Shown here: positions 9,357 through 60,318 of the stretch, in pieces | Layout: the number at the start of each line of letters is the position of its first letter | Position numbering within the stretch: position 1 is the stretch's first letter | Assembly: GCA_905182195.1 (NCBI GenBank) | Contig: CAJJAW010000002.1 | Coordinates: forward strand, 1-64,000 | Reading direction: 5' to 3' | From: Alphaproteobacteria bacterium UBA4588 | GTDB lineage: Bacteria; Pseudomonadota; Alphaproteobacteria; Rhodobacterales; Rhodobacteraceae | Length of the DNA stretch: 64,000 nt | Notes under the pieces: generated by a model | Told to the model about the DNA's origin: nothing | Databases searched by the model: none | What the model saw: the letters and a program-made list of their open reading frames with translations, nothing else | Made by a program: the position numbers and the translations under genes

Positions 9357-11146
9357 TTAGGAAGCGCTCTCTTCCGTAAATTGCAACTTGGCCAAGCGCG
9401 CATAAAGCCCGCCTTCACTGACCAATGTAGCATGTGTGCCCTGCGCAACAATCTGGCCCTGATCCATTACCAGAATGCGATCAGCTTTTTTCACCGTAGC
9501 TAAGCGATGCGCTACTACTAATGTCGTCCGGTCTTTAGACAAAACTTCAAATGCCTTTTGAACCAGAGCCTCACTCTCGCCATCAAGCGCCGAGGTTGCC
9601 TCGTCGAGCAAAAGAACAGGCGCATCGCGCAATATGGCCCTCGCAATTGCAATCCGCTGCTTCTGCCCACCCGACAACATAACACCACGCTCACCAACGT
9701 AGCTGTCATAGCCTTCTGGCAAAGCTAATATGAAATCATGGGCAGCTGCCGCTTTTGCAGCTGCAATCACCTCATCTTTGTCGCGTCAGGACGACCAAAA
9801 AGAATATTGTCATAGGCAGAGCAAGCAAAAATTACTGGGTCTTGCGGTACCAAGGCCATAAATCTTCGAAATGCACTGCGCTCCATCTCTGGTAAAGCGA
9901 TGCCGCCAAAGCTAATTTGGCCCTCTTGCGGGTCATAAAAACGCTGCAGCATTTGAATGATTGTTGATTTCCCAGCTCCTGACGGCCCAACCAAGGCGAC
10001 GGTCTCACCCGGATTAATAGTGAAACTCACCTTATCAAGCGCCAAGGCATCAGGGCGATTGGGGAATGTGAAATTAACTTTGTCAAAAACCACAGCACCA
10101 GCTTTTGGTGCCCGTGGGTTTTGGGGATCCGCAATCGTGTCTTGGGCATTCAACAGCTCGACCAAGCGCTCTGTGGCACCAGCGGCTCGTTGCAACTCTG
10201 ACCAAAGCTCCGACAAAGCTGCAGTGGAGCTGGCCACGATGGTGGCATAAATCACAAACTGGACCAGTTGGCCGGCCGAGGTGACGCCGCTCCGTACATC
10301 AATCGCACCAACCCATAAAACGCCCATCACACCGCTAAAGGCCACAAAGATAATAATCATTGTAATTAATGCGCGCACTTTGATGCGTGCTTTTGCGCTG
10401 TCAAAAGCTTTTTCAGTCACACCTGCAAACTCTGACAGGCTTCGAACCTCATGGGTAAAAGCCTGCACAGTTTGCACCGACAAAAGAGATTCGGAGGCCT
10501 TGCCTGATGAGGCTGCAATCCAATCTTGGTTTTTGCGTGACAGCCCACGCAGCTTGCGGCCCAATGCCAAAATTGGCCCAAGGATTAGCGGCACGATCAA
10601 TAATACCAAACCGGTGAGTTTGGGCGATGTCCAAAACATCATCACAAGCCCACCAGACATCATTAACATATTGCGTAAAAGCCAGCTGGCCGAAGATCCA
10701 ACGACCGACAGAATAAGAGTTGTGTCTGTAGTAATTCTACTTAGCACCTCACCCGTCATCAATTTTTCGAAATAGGCCGGCGACATCCCAATCATACGTT
10801 CAAAAATCGCTTTTCGGATATCAGCCACCACACGTTCACCTAGACGCGTGACAACATAGTATCGCAACCCAGTGCCCAGCGCGAAGATCGCAGCAACTAT
10901 AATGGCACCGAGGAAATACCGATTCAAAAGAGCCACGTCGCCCACGGCAAAACCATCTATAACCTGGCGCGCGGCCAAAGGCAGCACAAGCGACACACTG
11001 GCTGTGATGGTCAAGGCAATAAGCGCAAGAATTACCAACAGCTTATAGGGAGCAAAATAGGGAACCAACGCGCGCAAAACCCCAACCTGCTTGGAGGATG
11101 CACGATCCTCTGCCACATCAGCAACTGACTTTGGTCCCCGTGCCAT
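9357..11146 (-). pseudogene. ABC exporter (fused permease-ATPase), split by a 1-nt frameshift
   Basis: Together the two ORFs encode one ABC-B/MsbA-like half-exporter of about 596 aa. The upstream ORF (9767-11146, 459 aa) has six membrane helices, then Walker A GPSGAGKST, the Q-loop and ends in [10 protein letters not shown]. The downstream ORF (9357-9770) restarts with [12 protein letters not shown] and carries [14 protein letters not shown], Walker [10 protein letters not shown] and the H-loop VVAHR. Restoring one G (AAAG|GATGAGGTG) yields the uninterrupted family consensus [11 protein letters not shown]. The reading frames overlap by GTGA, so coupled translation of two chains is formally possible, but a split between Walker A and the signature would normally destroy the ATPase. 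Sequencing error is a real alternative. Confidence 0.8.
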
Positions 11147-17216: not shown

Positions 17217-17702
17217 TTAGCACTTTTGTGGGTTGTTATCAATGTATACTAAACTAACGCAATTTGAACAGACTGAAGCGGCATCAGATGACGAATACGC
17301 ATCAAGAGGCCGGTCGCCTAAATGTTGGATCACATATCCAACATTTCTTCTTGCTACTTTGAAGAATTGATCCCCTCTGCCAATATCTTTTAGCCGGCAA
17401 TATTTTTCCAATGCATCAGACAGTTTTGGAGAAAATGATGTGAATGTGTTTGTTGGTTGTCCCTTGATTAGTAACTCTGCAGCGGGAACTTCCATCTGAG
17501 AAATACGCATCTTTAGCCAGAAGTCATCAAGTTTACTGGCAAGAGAATGACTAGCCTTCAACGCAGAGTTTTTACTACGGGTCTTTAAACATATCACAAT
17601 GCGAGGTCGTGCATAATGACATTGCAGATCATTCGGCACATGTCTGGTGAAGTAAAATACGCCGCCTTTATTCATTAAATAATGAGCATCTTTGTCTACC
17701 AT
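17217..17702 (-). pseudogene. Truncated tyrosine-type site-specific integrase
   Basis: N-terminal part of a Rhodobacterales-type phage/island integrase: AHYLMNKGGVFYFTRHVPNDLQCHYARPRIVICLKTRSKNSA is the DUF6538-like arm-binding module, followed by the start of the core-binding domain (FSPKLSDALEKYCRLK...YVIQHLGDRPLDAYSSSDAAS). After that the sequence turns into unrelated residues and stops, so the whole catalytic domain with the R-H-R-Y residues is missing. I use the ATG at 17702. It sits beside tRNA-Gly and points into the island, as a functional integrase would. Confidence 0.75.
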
Positions 17703-17777
17703 GTCGTATACTCCACATAACCTGCAAAACAAAACATGCCTACAGATCAAGTGTTTATAAATATTGATGGAAATTTA

Positions 17778-17795
17778 TTGGAGCGGGTAGCGGGA
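17778..17795 (+). repeat. Proximal att-like direct repeat within tRNA-Gly
   Basis: TTGGAGCGGGTAGCGGGA at the 3' end of tRNA-Gly(TCC), identical to 11326-11343. Confidence 0.75.
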
Positions 17796-17852
17796 ATCGA
17801 ACCCGCGCCTTAAGCTTGGAAGGCTCTTATGATACCATTTCACCATACCCGC
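17779..17852 (-). tRNA. tRNA-Gly (anticodon TCC)
   Basis: 74-nt cloverleaf on the minus strand: GCGGGTA acceptor, D arm with GGT, anticodon loop CTTCCAA (TCC), T arm GGTTCGATTCC, encoded CCA. Its 3' end serves as the integration site of the island at lower coordinates. Confidence 0.95.
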
Positions 17853-22069: not shown

Positions 22070-22616
22070 ATGTTCAGTAAGAAAACATTGCAGGGACTAG
22101 TAACTGGTACTTTTTTTGTGGCTTCAACGTGCGGTGGGGCAATGGCTGAAAACCTTATTCGAACAGGCCAGTGGACCTATTTGGCAGACACCGTGATGGG
22201 GGGGGAGTTCGGAGGGACGTGCTGAATTTGAAAATAGTGGATCGGATAAAACTATAAGGCTAATAGGTGAGGTCTCTACAGCCAATAATGGAGGCTTCAT
22301 ACAGGTGAGGTCATCAGTTCCTTGGGCACTTGCAAAGGGCAAAACAGGTATAAAATTAAAGGTTAAGGGTAATGGAGAGACTTACTATCTACATATCAGA
22401 AATTCAAGCACACGCCTACCTTGGCATTACTACCAACAGGGCTTTGATACGACCAATACTTGGCAGGAGATTGATCTGCCCTTTCAATCTTTTGTGAAGT
22501 CTTCATCACTCATGCGGACTGTAATAAAACAAGCTACAATTAAGACCATAGGCATTGTTGCATATGGTAAAGACCACACAGCGGATATTTCAGTTATAAG
22601 TTTGGAATTTTACTAA
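22070..22616 (+). pseudogene. CIA30-family protein, frameshifted in a G tract
   Basis: Frame 1 (22070-22225) encodes a signal peptide (MFSKKTLQGLVTGTFFVASTCGGAMA) and QWTYLADTVMGG, then runs out of frame. The second frame continues SSEGRAEFENSGSDKTIRLIGEVSTANNGGFIQVRS...YYQQGFDTTNTWQEIDLPFQSF, the CIA30 (complex I intermediate-associated protein 30) domain. Removing one G from ATG plus seven Gs restores an uninterrupted protein of about 180 aa. Candidate explanations are a slipped-strand mutation, phase variation, or a homopolymer sequencing error. Bacterial CIA30 proteins bind carbohydrate-like ligands or act on the periplasmic side; the exact role is unknown. Confidence 0.75.
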
Positions 22617-23546: not shown

Positions 23547-23906
23547 AATTTACACATTTCGTTGTTCAATGGAAAAGACTGCGCGAGAGCGCATGACCTG
23601 AGTTTTAAAGAAGTAGCCTTATAAATGGAACTGCTAGAATAAAGTCCCATCAGTCTAGTGCAAGTACTAGCCATTTTTCTACCTCTAGTAATTTTTATCT
23701 CTTTAAAATCGTATGAGTATTCAGTCGATTTACGACGCGCGTAAGCAGCAAAAAATTTCTTACTTATATAAAAATGGACAATTCCATAAAATCACGTAAC
23801 GTAAGGCCTTGAAATATAAAAATATAGAATCGGTAAGTTGAGACCCAAATCACGTATTGATCTAAACTTTCTTGTAATTGGTCGTTAAATTGCAAGAGGA
23901 GCTGCA
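23547..23906. other. Divergent intergenic region before the adhesin
   Basis: About 360 bp, AT-rich, between the FkbM gene and the large surface-protein gene. It must contain both promoters. No operator-like symmetry was recognised. Confidence 0.4.
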
Positions 23907-26102
23907 ATGGCCAGGCCTATAAATAATGATTATGTCCCCATGGTCAACAAAAGTGCTCTGGGTATAATATCTCAGTCATTTTCCAAATGTGATTATACTC
24001 AGTTTGGCTTCCGGCTTGCAGCCAATCCCTCGCTTAAAATAGCGGGCCTTATTACTGCGCTTTCTACTGCATACGACTGGCTCTGCTCTGCACGCAACAG
24101 CACTGTGATGCCATATTACCTTAAATCCATAATAATCTCTTTTGCCATATGGATGAGCCTATCTACTGGAGTAATATCTCAAACGACAAATTATAAATAT
24201 GATATTATTTGGACTGGTAACGAAGGTTCAACAGCCACTGGGGCAGTTGTATTCAACACACTAAATCCTTCTTGCTCTTTCACGCTTTGCCCTAATGTTG
24301 AGTCTTTTAATATCTCAGTCGAAGGACAAAATTTCACAAAATCCGATTTTACATTCAGGGTCAACGTTGGTACTTTGGACCCACAAAACACATCCAACCT
24401 TGCTAACACCCTACCGGACTTTAACATTCGCGCCATCACACGCACAGCATCCAGCCCATATGGTGTGTGGTACAATGTCTTCACAACAACCACCGGCGCT
24501 ATGGTTTTGAACGACAGTAATGTAAGGTATTCAATTACTAGTTTCTCATTAGCTTCATCAGACACAACGCCACCAACTCTGGCGATTACCGCAGCTGAGG
24601 TGAGCGACGGCGCTACATCCAATGATGCAACCCTGGCCCTGACCTTTACGGCGAGTGAAGCCACATCCAACTTTGTTGTCGGCGACATCACCGTGAGCAA
24701 CGGCACTTTGAGTAGCTTTGCTGCAGCATCATCAACTGTCTATACAGCAACATTCACCCCTACTGCCGCGGGGGCGACAACAGTTGATGTTGCAGGCGGC
24801 GCCTTTACAGATGGCGCAGGCAATGCAAACACAGCTGCCACACAGTTCAATTGGACCTTCGACAGCACAGCGCCAACACTTGCGATTACCGCAGCTGAGG
24901 TGAGCGACGGCGCTACATCCAATGATGCAACCCTGGCCCTGACCTTTACGGCGAGTGAAGCCACATCCAACTTTGTTGTCGGCGACATCACCGTGAGCAA
25001 CGGCACTTTGAGTAGCTTTGCTGCAGCATCATCAACTGTCTATACAGCAACATTCACCCCTACTGCCGCGGGGGCGACAACAGTTGATGTTGCAGGCGGC
25101 GCCTTTACAGATGGCGCAGGCAATGCAAACACAGCTGCCACACAGTTCAATTGGATCTTCGACAGCACAGCGCCAACACTTGCGATTACCGCAGCTGAGG
25201 TGAACGACGGCGCTACATCCAATGATGCAACCCTGGCCCTGACCTTTACGGCGAGTGAAGCCACATCCAACTTTGTTGTCGGCGACATCACCGTGAGCAA
25301 CGGCACTTTGAGTAGCTTTGCTGCAGCATCATCAACTGTCTATACAGCAACATTCACCCCTACTGCCGCGGGGGCGACAACAGTTGATGTTGCAGGGGGC
25401 GCCTTTACAGATGGCGCAGGCAATGCAAACACAGCTGCCACACAGTTCAATTGGACCTTCGACAGCACAGCGCCAACACTTGCGATTACCGCAGCTGAGG
25501 TGAGCGACGGCGCTACATCCAATGATGCAACCCTGGCCCTGACCTTTACGGCGAGTGAAGCCACATCCAACTTTGTTGTCGGCGACATCACCGTGAGCAA
25601 CGGCACTTTGAGTAGCTTTGCTGCAGCATCATCAACTGTCTATACAGCAACATTCACCCCTGCCGCAGATGGGGCGACAACAATTGATGTTGCAGGGGGC
25701 GCCTTTACGGATGGCGCAGGCAATGCCAACACAGCTGCCACACAGTTCAATTGGACCTTCGACAGCACAGCGCCAACACTTGCGATTACCGCAGCTGAGG
25801 TGAACGACGGCGCTACATCCAATGATGCAACCCTGGCCCTGACCTTTACCGCGAGTGAAGCCACATCCAACTTTGTTGTCGGCGACATCACCGTGAGCAA
25901 CGGCACTTTGAGTAGCTTTGCTGCAGCATCATCAACTGTCTATACAGCAACATTCACCCCTGCCGCAGTGGGGCGACAACAGTTGATGTTGCAGGGGGCG
26001 CCTTTACGGATGGCGCAGGCAATGCCAACACAGCTGCCACACAGTTCAATTGGACCTTCGACACGACCTACCCAACACTTGCGATTACCGCAGCTGAGGT
26101 GA
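23907..26102 (+). CDS. Ig-like repeat surface protein, N-terminal ORF of a frameshifted gene
   Basis: 731 codons. The start at 23907 has a strong GAGGAG ribosome site and gives a 67-residue extension before a conventional signal peptide (MPYYLKSIIISFAIWMSLSTGVIS), reminiscent of extended signal regions of large autotransporters. After an N-terminal domain (YKYDIIWTGNEGS...) five near-identical 100-aa repeats begin with LAITAAEVSDGATSNDATLALTFTASEATSNFVVGDITVSNG and end GNANTAATQFNWTFDSTAP, a bacterial Ig-like (Big_12-type) domain found in adhesins. In repeat 5 a missing A (GCCGCAG|TGGGG instead of GCCGCAGATGGGG, near 25968) shifts the frame; the last 45 codons are out of frame. Confidence 0.75.
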   Translation: MARPINNDYVPMVNKSALGIISQSFSKCDYTQFGFRLAANPSLKIAGLITALSTAYDWLCSARNSTVMPYYLKSIIISFAIWMSLSTGVISQTTNYKYDIIWTGNEGSTATGAVVFNTLNPSCSFTLCPNVESFNISVEGQNFTKSDFTFRVNVGTLDPQNTSNLANTLPDFNIRAITRTASSPYGVWYNVFTTTTGAMVLNDSNVRYSITSFSLASSDTTPPTLAITAAEVSDGATSNDATLALTFTASEATSNFVVGDITVSNGTLSSFAAASSTVYTATFTPTAAGATTVDVAGGAFTDGAGNANTAATQFNWTFDSTAPTLAITAAEVSDGATSNDATLALTFTASEATSNFVVGDITVSNGTLSSFAAASSTVYTATFTPTAAGATTVDVAGGAFTDGAGNANTAATQFNWIFDSTAPTLAITAAEVNDGATSNDATLALTFTASEATSNFVVGDITVSNGTLSSFAAASSTVYTATFTPTAAGATTVDVAGGAFTDGAGNANTAATQFNWTFDSTAPTLAITAAEVSDGATSNDATLALTFTASEATSNFVVGDITVSNGTLSSFAAASSTVYTATFTPAADGATTIDVAGGAFTDGAGNANTAATQFNWTFDSTAPTLAITAAEVNDGATSNDATLALTFTASEATSNFVVGDITVSNGTLSSFAAASSTVYTATFTPAAVGRQQLMLQGAPLRMAQAMPTQLPHSSIGPSTRPTQHLRLPQLR

Positions 26103-26380
26103 GCGACGGCGATATATCCAATAATGCAACTCTGGCCCTGATCTTTACGGCGAGTAAAGCCACATCCAACTTTGTTGTCGGCGACATCACCGTGAGCAAT
26201 GGCACTTTGAGTAGCTTTGTTGCGGCATCACCAACTGTCTATATAGCAATATTAACCCCTGCCACAGATGGGGCGACAACAATTGATGTTGCAGGGGGCG
26301 CCTTTACGGATGGCGCAAGCAATGCCAACACAGCTGCGACACAGTTCAATTGGACCTTCGATAGCACGGCGCCAACACTC
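24582..26380 (+). repeat. Six tandem 300-bp repeats encoding Ig-like domains
   Basis: Units begin with gcgattaccgcagctgag at 24582, 24882, 25182, 25482, 25782 and 26081. The first four are exactly 300 bp and nearly identical at DNA level, differing at a few positions (gtgagc/gtgaac; actgccgcg/gccgcagat). Unit 5 is 299 bp because of the frameshifting deletion, and unit 6 has many substitutions. Such identity implies recent duplication or gene conversion, and makes copy number unstable and hard to assemble. Confidence 0.95.
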
Positions 26381-28438
26381 AGCAGTGTCAGCATAGCTTC
26401 AAATAACGCCACAACTACGACAGCAAACATAGATGATGTTGTAACCCTCACACTCACAGCATCTGAAGTAATTCGTACACCGGTTGTCACCTTTCTATCA
26501 GGTGGTGCGGCTATCAAGGACACGTCTGTTACCTACGCAAAAGCAAGTGGAAACACTTGGACTGCGGCCTATACAGTCAATAAGGATGATACCTTTGGAG
26601 TTGGTCAAGTTACCTACAGCATCGCCTTTATTGACGCTGCAAATAACACTGGAACAGCTGTGACCAACGGCACTGGTAGCGTTACTATGCCAGCCGTCAC
26701 TGTGCCTGACTTCAGTTCATCTGACGACGGTATAGGCTCTGCCACAAAAGCCGCGAATACTCAGAGCTCGTATAGTGTTTACGATGGAGGCATACCTGTC
26801 GCCGTTATTCTCAGGGATGGAAATAATGCGCAACTCACAGATACTTCTCTTATATCTAGCGTCACTGTTTCAATCGTTTCTGGTGAGGGAACCCTATCAA
26901 CAAACCCCACCGGAACTACTATAACGATACCCAATGATGGTGACGCTGTATTCAGCTTCGAGATCATATCTACCACAGGTGGTGTAGTTTCCGTGAGCGC
27001 AACTGTCGTTACAACAAATGGCGTTAAACATATCCTCCCAAACAATTTGGATGTAGCATTTGTTGAAAATGCAGCTTCAGCAACTGGTAAAATTAATATT
27101 GTTACGCAACCTGCACTTGGTGGAACTACCGCAGTGTTGAATGGTGACCTTCTATCCACTCAGCCTGTAGTGCGCTTGTTGGATAACAATGGGGCATTAA
27201 AGTCATCAGACAGTTCAACAGAAGTAACTGCACGTATAGTGAGTGGAGCAGACGGGTCTCTAAATGCAAATGGACCGGCCACTAAGGTGCAAGTTGTAAA
27301 TGGAATTGCAACCTTCACTGGCCTCAAATTAACAGGCAATGCTAACCAGGCGTACCGATTAGTGTTTATGGCAACAAATTACGTTCCCGCTATATCGCAA
27401 GAAATGAGCCTGACACCAAACGAAGTATTCACGGCGGTTAAAACAGACATCAAGGACAAGCTGGCGTCAAATGCTCAAACACAACTTAATGCCCTCAGTA
27501 CCAACATATCCTCTATTATGTCCTCAGCACGAAGCCGTTTCGTGAACAAAGACACTGGCCGTTCTCAAGATGGCAAAAACACAGATCTAAGCGGTCAGGT
27601 TTCCACAGGCGGATCTAACCTAAACGGTACGACGCAACGCAACTTCATATCAGCCGACGGTAAGGCAACTAAGATTTTAGAAGCACAGTTCAGCTATACA
27701 AAAACTAAAGAAGGTCTAAAGTCCCAGAGCGCCTCTGGCCACATCTTATGGGAACAACAGTTATCTGACTTCTTATCGGTTGGCCGTTTCCTCGGTGTCT
27801 CCGTGGGCGATGCTAGCACTGTAGCCACAAATAAAATCGACATTGACTTCAAGGGCGTGCAAGTAGGTACTTATTTAGTGAGTAGCTTCAAAGACAGCCT
27901 TATTTTTGATACTTATGTTGCTGGTTCCATTATTGAGAATAAGGTGGATATAACATCTGGAGCGATGACAGCGAGCTCAACCTATCTCAGTAAAATAATT
28001 ACATCAGGCGCATCCATAACTGGGAGAATGGATATAGAGCCGTTTGAGATACGACCAACACTTTCAGCAGATATAAGTCACGTGTTTGGGCAGGCCGCTG
28101 ACTTCAATGTAGCAGTTGGTACTGCTACTTCTATTCAGCAAATCTCTTATGATGAAATTAGCAAGGGCCAGATAACCTTTGCACCAGAGACTAGGCTGCC
28201 TATCAGGCTTGGTGGGAAGTACTGGGATAAGGCCTCAGTCATTGCATTAACACCCAATGTGAAGTGTCGCTATTTCAAGCAAAGCACCAATCTAAATGAA
28301 TGTGGTCAGGGTTTAGCACTAAGATTTAACGTCACCACTAAAGATGGTCTTAAAAGTCTCTCCGCTAAAGCTGGGCTGGATCGAATTGGTAGTGAAACAA
28401 CAACTACGTTAAAGTTGATGTTTCACTCAATGTTCTAA
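26099..28438 (+). CDS. Ig-like repeat surface protein, C-terminal ORF with barrel-like end
   Basis: 779 codons; in the intact gene this frame would join the preceding ORF near 25968. It contains the diverged sixth Ig repeat, another Ig-like domain (TLSSVSIASNNATTTTANIDDVVTLTLTASEVIRTPVVTFLSGG), two further beta-sandwich-like segments (around KAANTQSSYSVYDGGIPVAVILRDGN and GTTAVLNGDLLSTQPVVRLLDNNG), a helical linker (VFTAVKTDIKDKLASNAQTQLNALSTNISSIM), and about 270 C-terminal residues of alternating beta strands ending in LKLMFHSMF. The terminal Phe and strand pattern suggest an outer-membrane autotransporter-like barrel. Restored, the protein would exceed 1,500 aa. Confidence 0.7.
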   Translation: MSDGDISNNATLALIFTASKATSNFVVGDITVSNGTLSSFVAASPTVYIAILTPATDGATTIDVAGGAFTDGASNANTAATQFNWTFDSTAPTLSSVSIASNNATTTTANIDDVVTLTLTASEVIRTPVVTFLSGGAAIKDTSVTYAKASGNTWTAAYTVNKDDTFGVGQVTYSIAFIDAANNTGTAVTNGTGSVTMPAVTVPDFSSSDDGIGSATKAANTQSSYSVYDGGIPVAVILRDGNNAQLTDTSLISSVTVSIVSGEGTLSTNPTGTTITIPNDGDAVFSFEIISTTGGVVSVSATVVTTNGVKHILPNNLDVAFVENAASATGKINIVTQPALGGTTAVLNGDLLSTQPVVRLLDNNGALKSSDSSTEVTARIVSGADGSLNANGPATKVQVVNGIATFTGLKLTGNANQAYRLVFMATNYVPAISQEMSLTPNEVFTAVKTDIKDKLASNAQTQLNALSTNISSIMSSARSRFVNKDTGRSQDGKNTDLSGQVSTGGSNLNGTTQRNFISADGKATKILEAQFSYTKTKEGLKSQSASGHILWEQQLSDFLSVGRFLGVSVGDASTVATNKIDIDFKGVQVGTYLVSSFKDSLIFDTYVAGSIIENKVDITSGAMTASSTYLSKIITSGASITGRMDIEPFEIRPTLSADISHVFGQAADFNVAVGTATSIQQISYDEISKGQITFAPETRLPIRLGGKYWDKASVIALTPNVKCRYFKQSTNLNECGQGLALRFNVTTKDGLKSLSAKAGLDRIGSETTTTLKLMFHSMF

Positions 28439-59564: not shown

Positions 59565-59684
59565 TAGCAAAATAGTAAAATATTTGTAGGCCCGCGTAAT
59601 ACATTTCATTCAAAATAGGCGTACCTATATGAAGATATTAAAATTGCCCAACCATTGCCAACTGAAACAAAGTTAGGAGTTAAT

Positions 59685-60318
59685 ATGACTGTTAAACTAC
59701 ATTGCTTCGGGGAAAGCGGAAATGCATATAAAGCGGCTTTGACCCTTGAACTTGCAGGTATGAACTGGGAACCTACTTTTGTTGATTTTTTTGCAGGCGC
59801 AGCACGCAGCGCTGAATATCATGACCTGAACGTGATGGCTGAAGCACCAGTATTAGTTCATGGTGATTTCACTCTGTCGCAATCTGGGGCCATTCAACAA
59901 TGGGTGGTCGATCAAACCGGAAAGTTAGGCGGTGCGCCAGAAGATAAATACGAAGTACTGCGCTGGCTATTATTTGATAATCATAAAATGTCCTCCCAAG
60001 CCGGCGTGACCCGGTTTTTGATGAACTTTCTACCAGAAGACAAACGACCCATTGCAGCGATAAAATTTTTACAGGGCCGCGTAATGGCTGCACTAAATAC
60101 TCTTGATACCCATCTGGAAGGCCGCACGTGGGTCGTTGGCAAGACAATGACTATCGCTGATATCGCCAAATTGCGGCTACCTTTTTTATCCTGAGCCTTA
60201 CGGATTTGTCCGAAAAAGTTGGCCAAATATTGATGCATGGTTAGGCCAGATCGAATCTACGCCAGGGTGGAAGCACCCATATGATTTAATGCCAGGCAAT
60301 CCATCGGACCGCGCATAG
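59685..60318 (+). pseudogene. Glutathione S-transferase, frameshifted near the C-terminus
   Basis: Start at 59685 (MTVKLHCFGESGNAYKAALTLELAGMNW), after TTAGGAGT. Thioredoxin-like N-terminal domain (FGESGNAYKAALTLEL; LVHGDFTLSQSGAIQQWV) and helical C-terminal domain. The annotated ORF stops at 60194 with ADIAKLRLPFLS. Deleting one A in GCCAAATTG restores ADIANCGYLFYPEPYGFVRKSWPNIDAWLGQIESTPGWKHPYDLMPGNPSDRA, the expected GST end. The frameshift sits in a 3-A run at about 60168-60170. It may be a real mutation or a sequencing error. Confidence 0.78.

Follow-up and report, generated by a model that had tools for sequence, protein, structure and literature searches.

The question raised by this locus is whether a run of near-identical repeats, interrupted by a break in the reading frame, belongs to one gene for a surface protein. 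In the window (the whole stretch of DNA that was analysed, 64,000 nucleotides), positions 23907/24108-28438 are likely to form a single gene, whose product would be a surface stalk protein of one chain, and the gap in repeat unit 5 is most likely an assembly error.

Tandem Repeats Finder showed a period of 300 with 6.0 copies and 96% matches (score 3229) at window 24573-26379, and a repeat search showed six copies with spacings of 300, 300, 300, 300, and 299. The self-identity at offset 300 within the array was 0.83, whereas 200 shuffles gave 0.25 (maximum 0.28). The array is real and lies far outside random expectation, and a scan of 464 kb of the contig found no comparable array besides one perfect 594-bp doublet. 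A sequence-only reading of the same DNA had described six 300-bp repeats at 24582-26380, which is this array with its units phased differently. The six-unit array was confirmed, and the length of 300 bp held for units 1-4 and 6, while unit 5 was 299 bp. In coding register (24573-26371), the units are as follows:

24573..24872, + strand: repeat unit 1, Big_12 Ig-like domain, 300 bp
24873..25172, + strand: repeat unit 2, 300 bp, with 3 differences from unit 1
25173..25472, + strand: repeat unit 3, 300 bp, with 4 differences from unit 1
25473..25772, + strand: repeat unit 4, 300 bp, with 9-11 differences from units 1-3
25773..26071, + strand: repeat unit 5, 299 bp, frame shifted by the missing base near 25969, stop at 26100
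26072..26371, + strand: repeat unit 6, 300 bp, oldest copy, differences mostly of the C>T and G>A type

Pairwise comparison showed 3-4 base differences among units 1-3 and 10-18 between unit 5 and units 1-4, with clustered differences at the end of unit 5, where CACGACCTAC stands in place of CAGCACAGCG. Unit 6 had 18-29 base differences from all other units, in agreement with its earlier description as an older, diverged copy. Identical runs between units reached 274 bp. The unit alignment contained 10 informative columns, and 9 of these fit, or are compatible with, a split between units 1-3 and units 4-6. Column 32 (G/A; GGAGAG across units 1-6) conflicts with six informative columns and gives a four-gamete conflict. 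The earlier claim that variants are mixed among units held for column 32, where all four combinations with the block of units 1-3 and units 4-6 occur, and did not hold for the other sites. The conflict at this one incompatible site, which is what suggests exchange between units, would also fit duplication of a unit pair, with recurrent mutation as a possible alternative.

Six Big_12 (PF19078) matches of 56-72 bits each were obtained, exactly one per unit and in register, all exceeding the curated 27-bit cut-off, and the assignment of the units to Ig domains was upheld. The units are 100 aa long, with a protein identity to the first unit of 83-95%. AlphaFold modelled a single unit as a seven-strand sandwich, with moderate confidence (pLDDT 70). 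Comparison of this model with the PDB gave weak matches, none with E < 0.001, among which Yersinia InvE ranked first and InvD within the top ten, while a direct search of solved structures with the repeat units gave no match.

One base is absent from unit 5 at aligned column 197 (window ~25969), so the frame from 23907 ends at 26102 and the remainder lies in another frame at 26099-28438. The parts of the gene and its upstream border are as follows:

23838..23980, + strand: copy (76% identical) of a junction between flagellar genes of motB-fliD type, with the ribosome-binding site and first ~27 codons
23907..26102, + strand: upstream ORF, 731 aa as mechanically read
26099..28438, + strand: downstream ORF, 779 aa, with unit 6, Ig-like middle domains, and barrel
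26372..27350, + strand: middle region with a weak Big_3_3-like match
27401..28435, + strand: C-terminal linker helix and outer-membrane barrel domain, with terminal Phe and conserved CxnCGxG

The ATG at 23907 sits inside the flagellar-junction copy, which has its counterpart on contig C8 of the same genome; the motB/fliD-type names come from reading the neighbouring ORFs, not from a family search. Sequence like this copy is also present in G018 and G016. ATG 24108 or GTG 24105 is more likely than 23907 to be the biological start, and a hydrophobic, signal-peptide-like segment, assessed by hydropathy only, occupies residues 72-90 of the 731-aa ORF, directly after ATG 24108. The downstream 779-aa ORF lacks both a start and a signal peptide, and its aa 1-357, to which the middle region belongs, are 52% identical to a protein of the complete relative G012. 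In the best reading, the chain is predicted to run from a signal peptide through the N-terminal region, the Ig stalk, and the middle domains to a barrel anchor. The surface location proposed earlier gains indirect support from the N-terminal signal-peptide-like segment and from the outer-membrane barrel with which the downstream ORF ends, although the frame between stalk and anchor is broken. The sequence-only reading overlooked this barrel anchor as well as the 1-bp deletion of unit 5 that interrupts the gene.

The C-terminal domain of about 300 aa belongs to a barrel family with an invariant final Phe and an invariant C...CGxG, and the barrel of the repeat gene keeps the residues that are invariant in the family. 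The barrel domain was present in 20 of the 199 genomes sampled across the Rhodobacteraceae, and some relatives combine the same barrel family with Big_12 domains. This barrel family, present in about 10% of those genomes, is without a Pfam model of its own. The window's own barrel gave no significant match to Pfam, while some barrel relatives matched Autotransporter PF03797 over the same stretch (2e-4 to 3e-16). Profile-profile comparison with clear PF03797 members gave 97% (E 9e-11) for the wide barrel-family alignment and 67% (E 5e-5) for the narrow barrel alignment. AlphaFold on the barrel (four sequences) gave a pLDDT of 30, and the barrel profile matched only OmpX among solved structures, at E 0.75. 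These profile comparisons suggest, and do not prove, that the barrel is a member of a wider autotransporter-barrel group and distant kin of PF03797. A profile search of genome contigs with the barrel alignment found three Planktomarina MAGs, while the 692-aa query found no match in the genome contigs and none of the viral contigs searched was matched. No Rfam match was found at window 22-30 kb.

For the break in unit 5, 145 conserved genes were compared with the complete relative. Frame breaks were found in 6 of the 145 genes, one of which was also flagged in the reverse comparison and was discounted; in that comparison, 1 of 135 genes was broken in G012, and this was the discounted locus. At least 5 of the 145 conserved genes were therefore broken, and the breaks numbered up to seven over some 150 kb of coding sequence. 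Several breaks were at homopolymers, a pattern described for long-read assemblies (PMC12007338). The unit 5 frameshift is probably an assembly or sequencing error because conserved genes of the same assembly are also broken. The breaks at homopolymers include a frame change at a G8 run (22.2 kb) in a CIA30-type gene (window 22109-22613) and one at a T6 run in a GST gene (window 59655-60315). An ABC transporter (window 9767-11146, - strand) is frameshifted with its remainder in another frame below 9767. An 817-aa conserved gene on contig C2 (~170780-172904) has up to three apparent breaks and is either a pseudogene or a case of clustered errors.

A real frameshift, with the locus either a decaying pseudogene or the source of a truncated, unanchored Ig protein, is judged unlikely. 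It would account for a 1-bp deletion that is not in any homopolymer, for a unit 6 that is rich in amino-acid changes behind the break (dN 0.054 vs dS 0.077 to unit 4), and for a gene that lies in a region non-syntenic with the complete relative and is missing from the other members of the genus that were sampled. Against this, the 779-aa frame past the break has no further stop, unit 5 is still coding-like past the deletion, and the family-invariant barrel residues are kept, while the frame-break density of about 1 per 20 kb leads to about 0.2 breaks expected in a gene of this length. If the deletion were real, the clone would make only a truncated, anchorless protein.

The state of the assembly also bears on the copy number. 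A sugar-ABC permease gene on the same contig (L050 11331-12519; C2:295331-296519) contains the perfect, in-frame 594-bp tandem duplication, which is suspicious, being either a recent duplication or an assembly artefact, and tandem copy numbers in this assembly therefore need care. That the copy number or part of the array is likewise a false tandem duplication, as this doublet and the indel errors of the assembly might suggest, is nevertheless improbable: the units show structured differences of 3-29 bases, a pattern that false copying of one unit would not produce, and an array of 1.8 kb is short for long reads. The concern over an assembly artefact raised in the sequence-only reading was partly justified, given the frame breaks, several of them at homopolymers, and the suspicious duplication, while the structured unit differences oppose a wholly false array.

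Comparison with the complete relative showed that window 31.5-64 kb is collinear with G012 and window 1-31 kb is not, which places the repeat gene in a variable stretch. The gene is near tRNA genes. A truncated integrase-like ORF lies beside tRNA-Gly at window 17217-17852 (- strand). No equivalent near-identical Big_12 array was found in the other sampled Planktomarina genomes (19, one per species), and a literature search for Planktomarina Ig repeats found no papers. In three relatives, the homologous gene is cut off by the contig end within its Ig-coding frame; the contig-end sequences did not recur within their contig, so repeat collapse is not proved.

Contig C5 of the same genome carries a giant Ig-repeat gene with the same barrel family (L022 4277-16572). 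The tandem array of this gene consists of 4.1 copies of a 336-bp Ig unit (95%), and of its two frame breaks one lies within that array. With this second young array, young Ig arrays arose at least twice in the genome. Gain and loss of units is a plausible source of length variation, as proposed earlier, and would fit the near-identity of the units, the second young array, and the one recombination-compatible site. The C5 gene also bears on a further explanation, by which the deletion is real and is removed or spread by unit recombination, the array being an on/off switch of anchoring as well as a length switch. The unit that holds the lesion has neighbours with identical runs of 43-118 bp, and the C5 paralog is likewise frame-broken inside tandem repeats, but both lesions are explained by the general level of frame breaks in this assembly, and such a switch is considered very improbable. 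If it were true, one repeat array would control both the length of the surface stalk and its anchoring.

The protein was compared with known systems. In Periscope proteins, a single surface chain carries tandem domains of high mutual identity, and recombination alters how many there are (Whelan et al. 2021, PMC8201768; review PMC9704523); SasG, Rib, Sgo_0707, and CdrA are examples. For Gram-negative bacteria, the review cites inverse autotransporters that contain Ig repeats. The sequence criterion for Periscope proteins is tandem folded domains of >50 residues with >=80% identity, and the units here are of 100 aa with 83-95% identity and one Pfam domain each. Also shared, on the one-gene reading, are a single chain whose folded domains, repeated in tandem with very high DNA identity, lie between the N-terminal region and a C-terminal anchor, and the recombination proposed between repeats. 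The differences are that the anchor here is an outer-membrane barrel and not a sortase site, that no N-terminal ligand domain was identified, and that the frame is broken between stalk and anchor.

Inverse autotransporters (type Ve: intimin, invasin, InvD/InvE) share an outer-membrane barrel with an Ig-like stack, and InvE and InvD were the best weak fold matches of the unit model. Type Ve was rejected, since it needs an N-terminal barrel and a C-terminal Ig passenger, and the barrel here is C-terminal. Classical autotransporters (type Va, PF03797) are alike in having a passenger, a linker helix, a C-terminal barrel, and a final aromatic residue, and in the remote profile similarity to PF03797. 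A signal-like segment (by hydropathy only), a passenger before the barrel, and a final Phe were all found here, while the passenger is an Ig stack and not a beta-helix and the window's own barrel is below the Pfam cut-off. Among proteins with Ig arrays and the same barrel family, the C5 gene of the same genome (G000) has units of another Ig type (DUF5707/PKD-like matches), while a 2347-aa protein of G188 has a diverged Big_12 array with no tandem repeat at the DNA level. The repeat protein is, from its sequence, a candidate Periscope protein with the classical autotransporter domain order.

For the working of such a protein, we infer that a Sec signal would export it and that the C-terminal barrel would insert into the outer membrane, presumably by BAM, carrying the N-terminal part outside. 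The six Big_12 Ig-like domains would stack as a rod and keep the N-terminal region off the cell. The near-identical 300-bp units would have come from tandem duplication and been homogenised by exchange between units, and recombination over the identical runs would change the unit number in 300-bp steps, by which the length of the stalk may vary in populations. Binding would be a function of the exposed protein if the earlier proposal of an adhesin were correct; no ligand-binding domain was identified in the repeat protein, and the adhesin role is a guess.

The broken unit 5 indicates that frame breaks of draft assemblies can hide within repeat genes. Most known repeat surface proteins of variable length come from pathogens and commensals. 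The Planktomarina candidate, from an abundant free-living marine roseobacter, would carry its Ig stalk on a C-terminal barrel and suggests that such a device may also be in use in the open sea, where, as a speculation, its role would perhaps be attachment, or defence against phages and grazers.
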